This document shows positions 4,801 through 60,528 of a DNA stretch of 64,000 nucleotides, one piece after another. Both the position numbers and the translations under genes were made by a program. Source of the stretch: Sthenelais limicola (lineage: Eukaryota > Annelida > Polychaeta > Phyllodocida > Sigalionidae); contig OW804096.1 in NCBI GenBank assembly GCA_942159475.1, positions 18,686,906 through 18,750,905 of the forward strand, written 5' to 3'. Each line of letters begins with the position of its first letter. Within the stretch, counting starts at the first letter, position 1. The notes below the pieces were generated by a model. It searched no databases. It saw nothing but the letters and a program-made list of their open reading frames with translations, and was not told the DNA's origin.

Positions 4801-5714
4801 TTTTTGTCATTAATTCCTCTTTAATATGGGTTTTAAATATGTTTTACCCTGGAAGTAATTCATACTGCGATTAATCAGGTTTTTTTCCTTCTTTGCTTCA
4901 GCCTTAACATTGCAATGCTTTTTACATGTCAGCTTTTAGAAAAGAACCTAAGTGTATCAATAAGTATATAAATATACCACTAGTATATTCCCTTCTTCTC
5001 AACATGTACAGTATGACTAACAAGGATTCAAACAAATGAACTTGAGTTATGGCTAATGGGAAAAAATTAATGATTTGATCTTAAAGTTAAACTAAGCATT
5101 TGTATGTGTGTAAACTCAAACCTACATACAAATTATAGACCGATTATGTTCTATACGGAGTGTACCATATTTGTAAATGAAAATAACGCACTTGTTTATT
5201 ATGTAGAATTGTATAGAAATGAGAGCAAGCGCTGTGCCAATGATTGAAGAAAGAAAAGAGGAGTTTTATTGGTTATTATGGGTTATATTCCCCTGACGTG
5301 TACAATAGGGGACTTGCACAAATGCCATTTTTGATTCTTAGTCGCAAAGGATCACGGTAATTTGAATCGCGATGAAAGAATTCTCCCATGTGTATAGCCA
5401 AAGGCTGAGCTTGATATATGGAGGTTGTTTTTAAATTAAGATATGTATGTGACACCAAATTCTATAACTTTTTATTAAGAAAATCGAGTTTTTTTATGAA
5501 TATTTGTATGTCAAAGAATTGACTCACCAAGGGCACACATTTGTCTGGTATGTGCCACTGAAAATCCCAGCAAAAACAAAAAATTATTATATACTATACA
5601 TACTCAAATGTATCAATAATTTGAGCTTGTATTTTTTTTAAATGGAAAATAATTCAATAAATTGTGTCAGGTGGTTGATTGTACATGTCTAGGTAAGTTG
5701 GCCCAAATACAATA
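1875..5714. other. Gene-free stretch after the orphan exon
   Basis: No coding exon with acceptable splice sites was found. The first few hundred bases may be the 3' UTR of the preceding exon. It holds a degenerate tandem repeat at about 2690-3005 and otherwise AT-rich sequence. Confidence 0.45.
2690..3005. repeat. Degenerate tandem repeat, unit about 80 bp
   Basis: About four imperfect copies carry the recurring words GGACCAACACC, TGCTTCTTTAAAGCTGAA and CATGAACTC. The short frames on both strands here come from the repeat and are not genes. Confidence 0.5.
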
Positions 5715-44265: not shown

Positions 44266-44714
44266 TTACAGTATGATCTTCAGATCCAGTTTCAAAATGA
44301 CTAAATATTGGCATCCATGCAAGCAATATAGTGATGAGACATGTAAAATATGCTGCTGTAAACAAAAGGTATTTTGGTCTCGTTAATACCCTTAATACCT
44401 GATTGATTGATGTGATCTAAATGTGATGTGTTACATAACAATGAGACATGAGCTGCAGAATTAATTCATTCAATTGATTTATTCAAAAGATAGGAATTCT
44501 GAGTAGGAATGCTTTGATTTCTGGGGTGTTTAGTGCTCTATTCAGTTCATGTGCCTTTAATATGTTTCTGCTTTTCAAAGGTCAGGCTAAGGGAGAATAT
44601 TTAACATTTTTGGGGGCTATATTTTCGGGATTTTTTTTAGATATTTTCAATTCCTGTACCAATTCATGAGCAACCCTATTCATAAGAAAACATGTCTCAC
44701 TATCTCCTCTACAG

Positions 44715-44939
44715 GAAAGTTCCACTCCGCAACACTGAGTTTACTGCTGCACTCAGGAGGTCGGGCCAATGTGCGCGACGAGTCACGTGGTACACAGACG
44801 GCCACGCCCCTTCATGTTGCCGCCAAGATTGGTTTCCTTGACAACGTGCGTGTGTTGCTAGGGGCGGGTGCCTTGGTCAAGTTGAAGGACAGTTCAGGGC
44901 AGTCTGCCCTTCACATCGCTGCTGCTAACGACCTCACAG
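44715..44939 (+). CDS. Ankyrin-repeat protein, exon 4
   Basis: Acceptor TCCTCTACAG ends at 44714; donor CACAG|GTAAAT follows 44939; phase 1 on both sides, 225 bases. Encodes KFHSATLSLLLHSGGRANVR, TATPLHVAAKIGFLDNVRVL then LGAGALVKLKDSSGQSALHI and AAANDLT: two ankyrin helix pairs with textbook TPLHVAA and SALHIAA. Confidence 0.9.
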
Positions 44940-45358
44940 GTAAATTACCGTCTGCTCTTATTATTATTGTTTTTAATTTGTCGTCTGCTATTATTTTATA
45001 TCAATTGTTTATAACATTTCATATTTTGAGGTTAATTTTACAGATTGAAACAGAATGAAGTGAATCTTGTTTCACAATTAACTTCATCAAAGGCCTTTAA
45101 ATGAAATGATAAAGAAAATATTCTATAGCTTTCTGTCATTCTAGTTCATTCTCCATGTCTAATATTGAGCTTCCCTTGATTGATTTCATGGTAAATATTA
45201 TTAAAAAGTGTAAAAATGGAAAATGTCTGAAATAAATCTACACTAAATCATTTCATCCCAATTCCCTGTGTCTAATATCGGTCATAAATATCTGTCTGGT
45301 ACATAATTGTCACTACCCATGAAATCAAATATTCAAACCTGAAATTTGATATCTTCAG

Positions 45359-45705
45359 GTAAAATAGTGAGCTGCCTCCTAAAACACGGAAGTGACGTCA
45401 ACGAACAGGACGCCACCTTCGGGGAAACCCCATTACACAAAGCAGTCCGCTGTGACATGATCGAAAACTTCAAGATCCTGGTGCGTTCGGGTGCTAACCC
45501 TAATATCCAGGACTGCCAGCTGGAGACGGTGTTGCACAAGGCAGCTTCTTGCAGCAAGCCTTTCACTTGGACCTGTTTGATGAAGGTCGGCGGCAAGGTC
45601 AATGTGAGGAACAGTTTAGGGCTGAGTGTACTGGAGAAGGCAGAGAAAGCCAGAAATCATATTGCAGTGGGGATCATGCGGGAGAGCAGGGGAGGGGGGA
45701 ACTAA
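45359..45705 (+). CDS. Ankyrin-repeat protein, exon 5 and stop
   Basis: Acceptor TATCTTCAG ends at 45358. The exon completes a Gly codon and runs 114 codons to TAA at 45703-45705. Encodes KIVSCLLKHGSDVNEQDATF then GETPLHKAVRCDMIENFKIL, VRSGANPNIQDCQLETVLHK and a last capping repeat (VNVRNSLGLSVLEKAEKARN). No other domain follows, so the protein is N-terminal Ser/Pro-rich region plus about seven ankyrin repeats. The ortholog is not recognised. Confidence 0.9.
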
Positions 45706-49074: not shown

Positions 49075-49348
49075 CATCAAGCAATAATCACCCCCACTTC
49101 TGCATACTGAATGCGTACTCTTAGTGTGTAAGATGGCGTCTACCGGTGCGGACGTTGGCTAAATGTTGGGAAAGCAAGGCCCAATAACATGCCACAAAAC
49201 TAACTTGGACAATATATAAACAGTACCACCAGAAAGCCACTACGCATGAGAGAATACACATGGACCATTTACCTGATATTACTCATTCCTGATCGAAATA
49301 TCTAATAATTCCAAATTGCCGTGACTCACTATCCTGCATTATCGTCCA

Positions 49349-51217
49349 ATGGGCGATGACAACGCAGATCCGACCACACGTACCAACAAACGACTACCTT
49401 ACGCTTTGAGACGCATCATTTCTGATGAGACAGAAGCTAAAACTCTAAAACTTTATATTAGATCGCCACAGAAAATGGGTTCTGAAAGACGATCCTCAGA
49501 AAGGATAAATACATCGAATACTATTGGGAAAATGGAAGAAACCACTTCACAAACGGCGTCACTGACAGCCGAACAAACAAAACAACCAGCATCGGGGTCA
49601 CCCGAGTGCACGCAAGAGATAATTTATGCGGCACCTCTAGAGTTAGTTCAGGGAGATGAGGAATCGGTGGATTTGCAAAATGCAAATTCACAGCAGCAAA
49701 CAGATTCGCCTCAACCACCATCCAATGAAATGACTGACCCATTGACTGACCCATTGAAAATCTACTTTGCCGAATTAGTGAAAGACCTAAAACGCCACAA
49801 TGAAACCTCCTTAGAGGAACTTAAAAAACACAATGAAACAACCCTAAAAACTCATACAGCCCAAATCGAAGAAAAGATAAAGAGTGCTTCACAAGAAATG
49901 CTAAAAAGGCAGGAAAAGTATGACAAGCGCCTAGGGGAAATTGAGCAAAATCTTGGAGAAATAAAAACAAGAACTGGCCCTGAAAAACTCAACTCGCTGA
50001 TCAAAACCCAACTTGATGTACATATTCAAATCTTAAACGAAGGGGTGAAGAAGGAGAAACTTGCATGGGACACCCACATCAGAGAAATGAAAGATGACAT
50101 AAGCACTAAGGCTCAAGCTTTACCTACCGACCAAGGAATCTTAAACGAAACTAACAGAAAAATCGGAGACTTTGGGCGCAAACAAACCAACTTTGAGGGA
50201 TTACTGGCCCAATCGGCACGCTCAAACGCAAAACTCAAAGCTCAACTGCATGAAGCTGACCACAGAAATGAACTTCTGGATATTAAGATAAGAAATAAAA
50301 ATCTAATCATCCAAGGAGTTCCAGAAAATAAAGGAGAAAATTTTGACGACTATTTCTTCAATCTTATCGCCCCCACAGTTGATCAATTTGACCAAAGCCA
50401 TATAGATCATGCTTACAGGAGAGGAAAGTTTAACCCAAAATTTACCCGCTCTATTGTTCTATCCCTGACAACAGTTCATATGAGAGATCAAATATTGAAA
50501 CAAGCAAAAGAAATCAAAGACCAAGCGCAAATGGACAATCTTTGGATAAACAAGGACATCCCTGATGAGACCAATAGGAAAAGTGCCCTTATACGCCAAT
50601 GTGGTAAGGCTCTCACTGCGTTGAAACCTACTGAGAAACCAACCATTCGTGCAAATCACCTGATTCACAATGATCAAACATACCATTACGACGACCTTCA
50701 CCTTCTCCCAAGCGGAGCTACCCCGTACGATCTGAAAACCCAAATCTATCCCAATGTAAATGCTTTAGGGTTTCAGGGAGACCACGTATATCTGTCTAAC
50801 TTTTTCCAAAAAGATTTTTGGTATAAAGGTGCAATTTATAGCTCTGTAGAGCAGGCTTTTCAGATTGCGAAAGCTCAAGATAATCCAACTCCCCAGAATA
50901 CGAAACTCGCACTAGAAATGGGAAACATTGATGACCCATACGTTCTCAAACGCAAGGCCGCGAACATTACACCGGGAGCAAGTTGGCAAACCAAAGAGCG
51001 TGAATTACTCAAAGGTATTGTAAGACTAAAATTTCACCAAAACAAAGACTTAGGGCAGAAACTAAAGAACACTCCTCAAACCAAATTCTTCGAAATGACT
51101 AAAGATAGAAAGTGGGGCACTGGTTTCCGAATCGGAGATCAACGTTTCGACCCCACACGTGTCACGGGTAATGAGTTCGGTAAAATTCTTACAGAGCTAA
51201 AGTTAGAGCAAAACTAA
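49349..51217 (+). CDS. LINE ORF1 protein with C-terminal NADAR domain, 622 aa
   Basis: The ATG at 49349 opens an uninterrupted frame. Residues 1-130 are polar; about 135-325 form a coiled coil (LKRHNETSLEELKKHNETTL and later heptads); about 318-455 resemble the RNA-binding core and C-terminal domain of L1 ORF1p (NLIIQGVPENKGENFDDYFF, then HAYRRGK and RSIVLSL). Residues about 469-618 fit NADAR (YbiA/DUF1768): YLSNFF (481-486), SSVEQAFQIAKA with Glu501, DRKWGTG (586-592) and GNEFGKIL (607-614), the hallmarks of the family in the right order. NADAR proteins are N-glycosidases; some remove ADP-ribose from guanine in DNA in bacterial and phage systems, others act on riboflavin intermediates. Role here is inferred: coating LINE RNA while processing an ADP-ribose-like modification. 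I know of no established NADAR role in LINEs. Confidence 0.85.
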   Translation: MGDDNADPTTRTNKRLPYALRRIISDETEAKTLKLYIRSPQKMGSERRSSERINTSNTIGKMEETTSQTASLTAEQTKQPASGSPECTQEIIYAAPLELVQGDEESVDLQNANSQQQTDSPQPPSNEMTDPLTDPLKIYFAELVKDLKRHNETSLEELKKHNETTLKTHTAQIEEKIKSASQEMLKRQEKYDKRLGEIEQNLGEIKTRTGPEKLNSLIKTQLDVHIQILNEGVKKEKLAWDTHIREMKDDISTKAQALPTDQGILNETNRKIGDFGRKQTNFEGLLAQSARSNAKLKAQLHEADHRNELLDIKIRNKNLIIQGVPENKGENFDDYFFNLIAPTVDQFDQSHIDHAYRRGKFNPKFTRSIVLSLTTVHMRDQILKQAKEIKDQAQMDNLWINKDIPDETNRKSALIRQCGKALTALKPTEKPTIRANHLIHNDQTYHYDDLHLLPSGATPYDLKTQIYPNVNALGFQGDHVYLSNFFQKDFWYKGAIYSSVEQAFQIAKAQDNPTPQNTKLALEMGNIDDPYVLKRKAANITPGASWQTKERELLKGIVRLKFHQNKDLGQKLKNTPQTKFFEMTKDRKWGTGFRIGDQRFDPTRVTGNEFGKILTELKLEQN

Positions 51218-51325
51218 CCGTTTGGGATTCAAAATCTAGGTTCCCATAGTTGAACTGACATACCCATCTGGAATTGAACTGATAACATGCAATTTTGTAA
51301 TATTCACTTTTATTTTTCTACTAAG

Positions 51326-51991
51326 ATGGCTACCATATTCCTGGTCGGCGACTCACGTATACGTGACATCAAGCCCTACTTGTAACCATATTTGTCCGAA
51401 CCACGCTTCGAGCATTTACAAGTCATGTCTTTCGCGGGGGCTTCACTGAAGCTCTCGTCTTTCATGGCAGAGGATCGCATCCGTTCTGTCAGGCCTGGTA
51501 CAATTATATTTGCTGCTGGCCTCTGTACCTTAACTAGAAAAAAAGACGGTATTGTTTCAGTGGCCCACCCCACTATAAACAAAGCAGTCGAAGTGTACAA
51601 GGCAGATATGGAAACGGTCGAAACCAGAACTAAGCAAGCTTTATTCCCGTGCCAAGCGAATATTATATTCGCTCCAGTAACAGGTATGCACCTAGCTACA
51701 TACAATGGGCAGCACTACAATACACAGCAAATCCTCCTGAACCACACCGTAACAGAAGTAAACCTCGCTATTCGTCAGAGGAATGAGGTGCGAGGCTACC
51801 CCACCCCATATCTGGCAGATCTCGTGCACCATAATACGAAAGGAAGCAAACAGAATTACTACTGCCGCCTTGACATAGATGGATGCCATTTGACCGAGAG
51901 AGCTTACGACCACTGGTCCAAGCAAATAGGACGCATGGTCGACCGCCTGGACATAGCGATGCATAACCGCACAATACTATATGACTTTTAA
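51326..51991 (+). pseudogene. SGNH/GDSL hydrolase-like LINE ORF with an in-frame stop
   Basis: ATG at 51326 begins MATIFLVGDSRIRDIKPYL, whose GDS is the SGNH block I nucleophile motif. A TAA follows at 51383-51385 (codon 20), after which the same frame stays open to 51991. Later motifs are FAAGLCTLT (block III region, without the usual G-x-N-D), APVTGMHL and DIDGCHLTERAYDHW, with the Asp-x2-His of block V. Esterase-like domains occur in ORF1 of CR1/L2 LINEs; here it is a separate reading unit 108 bp downstream of ORF1. Everything downstream of the stop is well preserved, so the stop is recent, a sequencing error, or read through. Confidence 0.75.
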
Positions 51992-52285
51992 CTAAGTATG
52001 GACATGTAATCGTGAGTAGAAATCTTTATTAAAGGTGTCGTTTGATGTTATAAGAAAACACCAGGTAATTACTCACGTATCTCTCCGTCCAAACCACCAT
52101 AAGTTGTTCGTTCCATTTATTATTTACCATGGTGTGTTAGTTCAAAGCAGGGATGTTTTCTTCTCCCAATGCTGTGGCTGCTTCTCCGAAGCTCCCACAA
52201 TCTGTTATTATTATCACTACTGTATATAGAAAGGAATTTCTCTAGATTATTTCCTAATGATATAGAGAACTACCACCGTTGTGGT

Positions 52286-53219
52286 ATGGGTTGGGCCAAC
52301 TTGCTGACCCAATTAGGTCAGATAGTGTCAGCACCGAGAGACACAAAGATAAACGTTGGTAATGTAGATCTATCACTTAGTGATAGTGTAAGTTTCAATG
52401 AAACAAAAGGTTTTAAAATAGTCAGCTTAAATGTGAGAAGTTTATTAAATAAGATTGAAGAGATTGATACATTGTTTGATCAATTTAAAACACAGGTGAT
52501 ATGTATTAACGAAACCTGGCTTGACAAAAAAGTCTATGATAACATGATTAAGCTGGATGGTTATAACCAGATCAGAAACGATAGACAAACGGAAAAAAAA
52601 ACTGGAGGTGGGCTTATTACTTATGTAGCGGATAAATATGAAATTTTGCCAATTAGTGGCAATATTAGTGCAAAATTTAACCAACATATTAAATTATAAA
52701 AGTTGGCAACTTGCCAAACTGAGAGATAAGCTTCCCATAAAAACCTTATTACTTATATATAAGGTCATGGTTCTCCCTCTTATCGACCAAACCGACTTAC
52801 TTCATGATTCACACGCTACTTCAGGCACAAACCGTTTGCAAATTGTTCAAAATAAAATACTCAGGGTTATATTCAAGCTCCCACCTAGGACAAATGTTGA
52901 GCAACTACATATTGACAATCGAATACTTCCATTAAAACATCGCCGCCGTCTGCACCTACTACAGGCAGGACATCGTTTAGCAAAAAACCCCAGGAATATT
53001 GATTTAAAATTATTAAATACAAGAAACTTCGCGGAAGGTCGGAAGGTACTAAAACAGATAACACCTAAGAACGAACAGTTAAGGAAATCTTTATTAAACC
53101 GAATTACTTTCTCCTGGAATAAGTTGCAAACGGTGGCACATCGACTAGTAGATCCTCAGGCATTCAAATTACATGTAAGGCACAACCCCATCTGGGAAGA
53201 CCAAAATTTTATTGATTAA
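52286..53219 (+). pseudogene. LINE ORF2 with internal deletion (endonuclease start and C-terminus only)
   Basis: From an ATG at 52286, residues about 42-130 match the start of an AP-type endonuclease (FKIVSLNVRSLLNKIEEIDT, VICINETWLD with the catalytic Glu, GGGLITYVADKYE). At about 52670 this joins directly, with a change of frame, to the RT thumb/C-terminal part (KSWQLAKLRDKLPIKTLLLI ... IWEDQNFID, TAA at 53217). The rest of the endonuclease and the RT palm are missing. The 12.5-13.1 kb copy supplies the homologous sequence across the right side of the junction. Confidence 0.85.
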
Positions 53220-53676
53220 TCTATGTATATTCTTCACCCAAAACACCATTGTAAAATACATTAGTAAATTGACCTTCGATAACACAATTTACCATTGACC
53301 TGATACATTATTATTATTGTTGTCAAGCTGTCTCCTGTAAACACCGATGCATAAGAATTGTACTTATAACCAGATGTTTGATTTGATTCTATAACTCACC
53401 GTTGATCATATCGCTGTATGTCATTTAAAACTTATAAACTACGTTGAACAGTATATTTAACTGTTTATCAGACTTTGTATCTGATATTTGCTATTGTAAC
53501 TCACTATTGACTGAACATGTTATTTGATACCTATATTTAGAAAACAAGCTGAATGAAGAACACTTAACTGACTATCAGATTTTATTTTATTTTATTAAAA
53601 TTTAATTTAACATGCAAGACATTTCCAACGTTGAAAGAATTAAAACCGTAATTACTTATATATAATTTGCTGTGTG

Positions 53677-53701
53677 CCACTTTCGTCCCCGACGAAAGTG
53701 G
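53677..53701 (+). other. Perfect hairpin in the LINE 3' UTR
   Basis: CCACTTTCGTC-CCC-GACGAAAGTGG, an 11-bp stem with a 3-base loop, about 100 bp before the poly(A) signal. LINE 3' UTR stem-loops are often the RT recognition site; that role is inferred. Confidence 0.6.
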
Positions 53702-53797
53702 AATTGTTCGCAGCCATTCAACTCTGTAAGGACTTAAAGAGGGCTGGCAAACCTCCCAATGTCGGAGAAATGCCCCCTTATCGTGACCACGGTCAAT

Positions 53798-53831
53798 AAT
53801 AAATGTTTTACAATACAATACAATACAATAC
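53798..53831 (+). terminator. LINE poly(A) signal and (TACAA)n tail
   Basis: AATAAA at 53798-53803 is followed by four TACAA units, the kind of short-unit tail on CR1/L2-type LINEs. Confidence 0.65.
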
Positions 53832-59110: not shown

Positions 59111-59625
59111 CAAACTGCAAAATGCCATTAAAATCTCGTCTACTCCAGGGCCGGGAAAATCATCAATCATTGTACAAATTCAGACACCAATAATGAATTT
59201 TACCAATCAAACGTACTTGATGTTGACAAACATATCCTCAAAACATCTTGGATCGAGTAATTTACTCATTTTTGCAGCACATATTTTAATCAATTTTAAG
59301 CACAGAATGCGCCACCTGTACAAGTTCTGAGGCCATGAGGTATGTATAAAACTTTTACCAACCATACATTTAATTCACAAACTTCATTAAACTGTACTAC
59401 TCTAAACCTGGCATGTTTTAAATTAATTGTAAGCCCAGACTAGACCACATATATTATACAAGTTGTGAGACCAGAGGTACAGGTATGTTATGTTTATAAA
59501 ACAAGTTGTTGAGTTTTACCAATTAGCAGCAACATACGATGATGGCCACCACCACCAGCTGTACTGTGGTCTCATCTCATCAATTCACATCTGATCATTT
59601 AGGGACTCTTCATAATTAACTTCCA

Positions 59626-60528
59626 CAGGGAAGCTTGGTTGGTCCGCTCCTGTTTTTGATTTATGTCAACGACATCCCACGCTGTATAGAAAACTTGAAT
59701 ATCGTTGAAAACATAAAGCTTAACATTTATGCTGACGACACGGCTGTCAGTGTAACTGGAAAAGACTTGGCCTCTTGTCTCACCAGCACGCAACAGATAG
59801 CAAATAACATATCGTACTGGATGAGTTGCAATAAATTGGCAATAAATGCCAAGAAGAGTGTCATCCAAGTGCTTGGGACTAAACATCGCCTAAAGAAACT
59901 GAATATCAGAAATATGGCAGATATTTATATAAATGGCAATGCCATCGCTAAAAACAAGACTGTAAAGTACCTAGGGTTTACTATAGATCCATGTCTAAAC
60001 TTTAATGACCATTTCTCAAGAATGAGGGGAATCATACAGGCAAAGGTGAATAAGTTTGTAAAAATAAGGTTCTTTATAAATGAAGGATTGGCCAAACTGA
60101 TTGTAAAATCGCACATCTTGCCGTTAGCAGATTATGGTTTGTTTCTGTATAACATGGCCACAATTGTAAACATACAAAAGGTTCAAAACGTCCTAAACAG
60201 AGCCATACGGCTGGTTTTCATGAACAATGTATATTCAACAGCAGAGATGAAAACGTTGCTGGGTGTTAAAGACTTACACATAAGAGGGCGTATAGCAATA
60301 CACGGCCTTATGCACAATAGATTGGGTGACCCTGCGTATTTACAAGAAATGCCCAGGCACACAAGGCTCGCGGAGGGCCCAAATCTGTTGTGTCTAAGAG
60401 CAAATACGGATAAACTAGCAAGATCGCCTCATTTTACAGGTCCCTCCATGTGGAACAAACTGCCACCTGATATAAAAATTCAGAGCTGGAGTGATGTGAA
60501 GAAATATCTAAAGGCTACCTTGCGGTAA
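59626..60528 (+). pseudogene. 5'-truncated LINE RT, different family
   Basis: The frame opens at PQGSLVGPLLFLIYVNDI (RT motif B) and runs uninterrupted to TAA at 60526, with YADDTAVSV (catalytic Asp pair), KSVIQVLG, YLGFTID and a C-terminal FTGPSMWNKLPPDIK. The palm's first Asp and the endonuclease are missing. The 3' UTR has AATAAA at 60881 and a poly(A) run at 60894, so this is a typical 5'-truncated insertion. The uninterrupted 297 codons suggest a fairly recent one. The tail type (poly A) and sequence differ from the LINE at 49-54 kb. Confidence 0.85.

Follow-up and report, generated by a model that had tools for sequence, protein, structure and literature searches.

Results

A LINE Copy Whose ORF1 Ends in a NADAR Domain

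The 64,000-nt stretch of Sthenelais limicola DNA analyzed here (GCA_942159475.1, contig OW804096.1, positions 18,686,906 to 18,750,905 of the forward strand; hereafter the window) carries a long interspersed nuclear element (LINE) copy whose first open reading frame (ORF1) joins an L1-ORF1p-like RNA-binding core to a C-terminal NADAR domain. An initial annotation made from the sequence alone had described this single 622-codon frame, core first and NADAR behind it, and had named a profile or structural match of the C-terminal region as its check. Both were found, confirming the fusion: In the window copy Pfam PF08719 matches with E 7.5e-14 (52.7 bits, against a gathering score of 35.1), and structure comparison recovers the NADAR fold in the C-terminal domain, from a weak model (mean predicted local distance difference test score, pLDDT, 58). 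The features of the element are as follows.

49128..53830, plus strand: LINE copy, complete at both ends but with ORF2 internally deleted; the ends are common to L009 and L010 at unrelated sites.
49349..51217, plus strand: ORF1, 622 aa, with N-terminal linker and coiled-coil-like region (the latter judged by eye), L1-ORF1p-like core, and NADAR; from the reading of the frame.
50249..50752, plus strand: L1-ORF1p-like core, with a putative RNA-recognition motif (RRM) and C-terminal domain (CTD); matched by all of the best 150 of 2937 genome candidates.
50780..51202, plus strand: NADAR domain with YbiA-type catalytic residues; from Pfam, structure, and invariant residues.
51326..51991, plus strand: SGNH-like ORF with an in-frame stop at 51383-51385; from frame and motifs.
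52103..52658, plus strand: frame with the 5′ remnant of ORF2 (endonuclease start); from blastn against L009 and L010.
52658..52661, plus strand: junction of an internal deletion of ~2.07 kb; from blastn and the domain positions in L010.
52661..53219, plus strand: 3′ remnant of ORF2 (the part behind the reverse transcriptase); from blastn.
53810..53831, plus strand: (ACAAT)n 3′ tail, read directly and also present in L009 and L010.

Because its ends match those of relatives at unrelated sites and ~2.07 kb of ORF2 is gone, the window copy is an internally deleted, nonautonomous element. By blastn, positions 5258/5261 of the window locus correspond to 4207/6276 of L010, and the deletion removes the remaining endonuclease together with the entire Pfam reverse-transcriptase domain. 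The copy is thus a nonautonomous relic; its family still has open members.

The Fusion Is a Family Trait

We searched the genome (1.13 Gb) and scored only the best 150 candidates of each query, so the copy counts are lower bounds. With the NADAR query, the best 150 of 4588 first-look candidates all matched, 75 of them in frames of at least 600 codons; with the core query, the best 150 of 2937 all matched as well. A NADAR match lies within 700 nt on the same strand for 98 of the 150 scored core matches. From the other 52, we fetched 20, picked for frames of 562–832 codons, and in each of these the core is followed by NADAR, its end shortened or altered in four (L033, L034, L038, and L050).

Full loci of ~10 kb each were taken for 20 copies, chosen for long ORF1 frames and spread across subfamilies. 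All 20 have an ORF1 frame with NADAR; L023 and L026 differ in the 5′ part of ORF1, and L017 is without a piece of the core. The SGNH-like frame is open over more than 200 codons in 18 of the 20. An ORF2 frame of at least 950 codons is present in 12 (L009, L010, L015, L016, L020, and L022–L028), the recurrence beside long ORF2 frames for which the initial annotation had proposed to look. Nine loci combine all three ORFs with an ordinary ORF1 start (L009, L010, L015, L016, L022, L024, L025, L027, and L028), L009 being without the last part of ORF2.

These counts dispose of the reading in which the fusion is an in-frame accident at an insertion edge, confined to the window copy. NADAR adjoins 98 of 150 cores and is found in 20 of 20 fetched others, so the fusion is no boundary artifact; it is present in every examined copy and in three further lineages, and the element ends are shared. 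The single-copy reading is refuted, and the probability we leave it is negligible.

Two loci show further rearrangements. In L026 (G000:C1:71969780-71979726, minus strand), a single frame of 1442 codons combines a 5′-truncated ORF1 with a Gypsy-type integrase (rve, H2C2). In L033 (G000:C2:8053649-8055050), NADAR is cut and its frame goes on into sequence resembling a reverse transcriptase, which looks like the product of an internal deletion that joined ORF1 to ORF2.

Conservation, Selection, and Catalytic Residues

Conservation within ORF1 is highest in NADAR. Among nine subfamily representatives (36 pairs), median identity is 57% for NADAR (lowest 51%), 49% for RRM plus CTD, 25% for the coiled-coil part, and 23% for the N-terminal linker. 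The ratio of nonsynonymous to synonymous substitution (dN/dS; NG86 omega) points the same way: In the three lower of the rising dS classes, usable NADAR pairs gave 0.095, 0.085, and 0.084 (22, 7, and 3 pairs), well below 1, an outcome that the initial annotation, for recurrent fusions, would count in favor of a working domain. Corresponding values across four rising classes were 0.072, 0.079, 0.125, and 0.130 for the reverse transcriptase (9, 2, 4, and 27 pairs) and 0.160, 0.082, 0.065, and 0.247 for the ORF1 core (25, 6, 3, and 39 pairs). The C-terminal part of ORF2 gave one odd value, 0.449 in a class of five pairs, four of which involve L013, where ORF2 is split. These comparisons show NADAR to be under purifying selection, with dN/dS near 0.09, similar to the reverse transcriptase.

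Residues are numbered as in the oomycete NADAR, with roles taken from PMC11543638 (section 12), and were read in the 38 of 41 window-family copies that pass 80% cover (L033, L034, and L050 dropped; 37 pass 90% for NADAR); the omega values come from these 38 as well. E43, K50, E125, W89, and W133 are invariant in 38/38; every one of these copies therefore carries E43 and K50, a pair expected of the NADAR superfamily. A glutamate at E125 is the mark of the YbiA subfamily (PMC11543638, PMC11125620), and we place the window-family NADAR there because that glutamate is present in all 38 copies.

The same glutamate would suit a housekeeping role, in which the domain disposes of metabolites such as the reactive intermediates of the riboflavin pathway, as described for Escherichia coli YbiA, whose part in the riboflavin pathway is cited in PMC11543638. 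We consider this very improbable, since there is no evident reason for several LINE lineages to keep such an activity in an RNA-packaging protein and the genome has standalone NADAR frames (L056).

ORF2 and the SGNH-Like ORF

The ORF2 of L010 matches RVT_1 (1.2e-34) and Exo_endo_phos_2 (1.9e-9) in Pfam, which identifies the family as a LINE, the window copy itself being without the reverse transcriptase. The best PDB matches of ORF2 are LINE-1 ORF2p (5e-25), with R2 far weaker and no CR1/L2 reverse transcriptase among the matches. ORF2 also carries ETWL and GVPQGTTLGPLLF motifs, which we take to be CR1/L2/Jockey-like and non-L1.

Between ORF1 and ORF2 lies the SGNH-like ORF (window 51326-51991, L010:2872-3534, L055:3453-4076, and L054:3295-4239), present in the window family and two other NADAR-LINE lineages. 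GDSR, GAS, and DxCH are invariant in eight aligned members, and the third block reads GLCT, with no Asn. Common to the ORF across lineages are GDSR/DSR, G, G[LI]C, and DGxH, the Asn block again being absent. The ORF has no Pfam match and no credible PDB profile match.

Further LINE Lineages and Origin of the Domain

A genome search with the Pfam NADAR profile placed all of the best 150 of 5561 candidates over the cut-off, at 103.7–119.1 bits. These scores exceed those of the window family, and the upper rows, compared by eye, are places other than the window-family matches. We opened six such places (L051–L056), and five of them (L051–L055) are LINE ORF1s. L051 and L053 form one lineage (in L053, ORF1-NADAR of 648 codons and ORF2 of 972); L052 and L055 form another (in L055, ORF1-NADAR of 708 codons, SGNH-like ORF of 208, and ORF2 of 955; L052 is a broken copy); L054 is a third, with ORF1-NADAR of 778 codons, an SGNH-like ORF, and ORF2 split over two frames. 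Over the aligned parts, the reverse transcriptases of L053, L054, and L055 are 31.5–34% identical to that of L010.

The sixth place, L056 (G000:C1:94854700-94856200), is a standalone NADAR frame of 162 codons, and frames of the same kind and length stand at C1:89380390 and C1:66983187. These are possible host or domesticated genes.

In the protein database, the full ORF1 query returned one protein (P0001, a record without organism, with the same core-then-NADAR order), and NADAR alone returned one (P0002). A search of that database with an ORF1 alignment of four lineages gave zero matches and is uninformative because it missed its own member P0001. Relatives in phages and plasmids were sought by tblastn. 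In a NADAR tree of 32 rows, from which the phage locus L062 was left out, the window family (16 rows) forms one clade (100/100), with the deeper order unresolved. A single origin of all LINE NADARs is compatible with the data (p-AU 0.34).

Two other features lie elsewhere in the window: ankyrin repeats in two frames upstream of this element (44591-45705) and a reverse-transcriptase fragment from another LINE (59620-60528; RVT_1 2.5e-13).

Discussion

Proposed Function of the ORF1 NADAR

On balance, we think it probable, from conserved residues and homology, that ORF1 consists of an RNA-packaging half and a C-terminal NADAR half that is a working N-glycosidase kept at the element RNA. By homology, the L1-ORF1p-like half would package or coat the element RNA, so that the NADAR half would be held on that RNA and wherever reverse transcription takes place. 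There it may remove N-glycosidically joined ADP-ribose, most plausibly from guanine in the element RNA, the cDNA, or the target site. More tentatively, removal of ADP-ribose could undo modification by a host ADP-ribosyltransferase and so protect retrotransposition.

The substrate is plausibly guanine-ADP-ribose, because oomycete, DarT1-linked, E. coli, myxobacterial YbiA, and phage NADARs act on it in DNA. Known NADARs cleave ADP-ribose off the guanine amino group, YbiA-subfamily members included (PMC11543638, PMC11125620), and members of that subfamily are active on guanosine-ADP-ribose (PMC11125620). The guanine mark is made by clam CARP-1 and the pierisins; NADAR as its eraser is assumed there, not demonstrated (PMC11543638, figure legend).

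Alternatively, the domain may serve in processing the element RNA or its ends, or deal with ADP-ribose by-products that arise in RNA repair, with no part in opposing host ADP-ribosylation. PMC9503650 and, with regard to the oyster and brown-algal elements, PMC12477816 propose RNA processing or repair roles; an animal NADAR protein, SNA-3 of Caenorhabditis elegans, has been linked to trans-splicing of RNA (PMC11125620); and the NADAR here is tethered to a core of RNA-binding type. The measured substrate of NADARs, however, is guanine-ADP-ribose in DNA, and no RNA substrate appears in the sections considered of PMC11543638 and PMC11125620; we judge this alternative unlikely.

Several observations weigh against a working glycosidase that opposes host modification. 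D130 is not kept (D in 22, S in 9, and G in 7 of the 38 copies); the pyrophosphate-holding arginines of the oomycete enzyme, R79 and R93 (PMC11543638), correspond in the window copy to Ala and Glu, and Y84 is opposite an alignment gap. K50 is replaced by Arg in LINE lineages C and D; the E. coli C7 NADAR K95R variant is still active in vitro (PMC11543638). Model pLDDT is below 50 at residues 281-307, where E125 and W133 sit. In the deepest dS class, NADAR omega is 0.204 (33 pairs) vs. 0.130 (27 pairs) for the reverse transcriptase. Only 65 of 703 NADAR pairs were usable for omega (636 saturated, 2 too close), the copies were chosen for open frames, and the pairs are nonindependent through shared ancestry; this sampling weakens the omega result, yet the identity pattern along ORF1 points in the same direction. 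Activity in vitro alone does not give protection in cells (PMC11125620). DarT gave 0 matches in the genome, its control query being found in 1 of 14 genomes, and a Scabin-like query also gave 0 matches, a zero without weight because its control was found nowhere.

Part of this evidence would also fit a structural or ligand-binding module—a reader of ADP-ribose or nucleotides, or an RNA clamp—that does not need catalysis. D130 varies, R79 and R93 are not kept in the window copy, and low dN/dS is expected from fold conservation alone. Against it, E43, K50, E125, W89, and W133 stay invariant in 38/38 although domain identity falls to 51%, and we regard a noncatalytic module as quite unlikely.

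The working glycosidase is the reading we retain. PARP-family sequence gave 23 matches in the genome, exon by exon. A guanine-modifying host enzyme is not in evidence, and the counter-defense role stands as a hypothesis. From the interpretation offered in the initial annotation, the fusion, its recurrence, and purifying selection stand; activity, the guanine-ADP-ribose substrate, and counter-defense are carried forward as hypotheses.

Relation to Known Systems and Implications

New here are the arrangement of three ORFs, one of them SGNH-like, the occurrence in several lineages, the conservation and selection data, and ORF2 motifs that we presume to be non-L1. Among open-licence papers, we found one that links NADAR to retroelements, PMC12477816 (Genome Biol 2025). 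It reports YbiA-family NADAR in ORF1 of several Crassostrea gigas "Tx1" LINE families (Repbase), so a NADAR–LINE fusion, like that of the window family, is known in kind. The oyster families are called Tx1 (L1 group), whereas the ORF2 of the window family has ETWL and GVPQGTTLGPLLF; the two are set apart by description and may be of the same kind. The sections of that paper considered here hold no selection, active-site, or SGNH-ORF analysis of the oyster families. It also describes a retroelement YbiA-family NADAR in Gypsy Pol of the brown alga Ectocarpus, for which RNA processing is suggested and whose blastp matches outside Ectocarpus are nearly all bacterial. Two mollusc papers, PMC10653589 and PMC9125321, were set aside as NADAR sources because "nadar" occurs there in authors' names only.

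Other systems share parts of the arrangement. In the CR1/L2 group, ORF1s of type II have an L1-type core and those of type IV an esterase of SGNH type (PMC4120745, PMC3905857), resembling the L1-ORF1p-like core and the SGNH-like ORF described here, but the CR1/L2 esterase sits inside ORF1, whereas the SGNH-like ORF of the window family is separate (PMC4120745). The words NADAR, DUF1768, and YbiA are absent from PMC4120745, which treats ORF1 types of the CR1/L2/Jockey group. DarT1-linked, YbiA-family, and oomycete NADARs have the fold and the E43/K50/E125 positions in common with the window family (PMC11543638, PMC11125620); they differ in standing outside mobile-element RNA-binding proteins, and the window family does not keep R79, R93, and D130 throughout. 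C. elegans SNA-3, with three NADAR domains and a role in trans-splicing, likewise places an animal NADAR in an RNA–protein particle (PMC9303266, PMC11125620), but it is a host protein, whereas the window-family NADAR belongs to a retroelement protein.

The roles of eukaryotic NADARs, those of animals included, are called unclear in PMC11125620. That five of six opened high-scoring NADARs lie in LINE ORF1s bears on the annotation and phylogenies of animal NADARs. Should the domain have the activity to which its catalytic residues point, these LINEs would bring along an eraser of base ADP-ribosylation and could use it to clean or protect their nucleic acid. Whether ADP-ribosylation of nucleic acid serves as a transposon defense would then become directly testable. 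A broader proposal, which we advance tentatively as possible rather than probable, is that several deep LINE lineages carry a nucleic-acid ADP-ribosylation eraser in their RNA-coating protein, alongside a separate SGNH-like hydrolase: The host would mark retroelement RNA, cDNA, or target DNA as a form of restriction, and the element would counter it.
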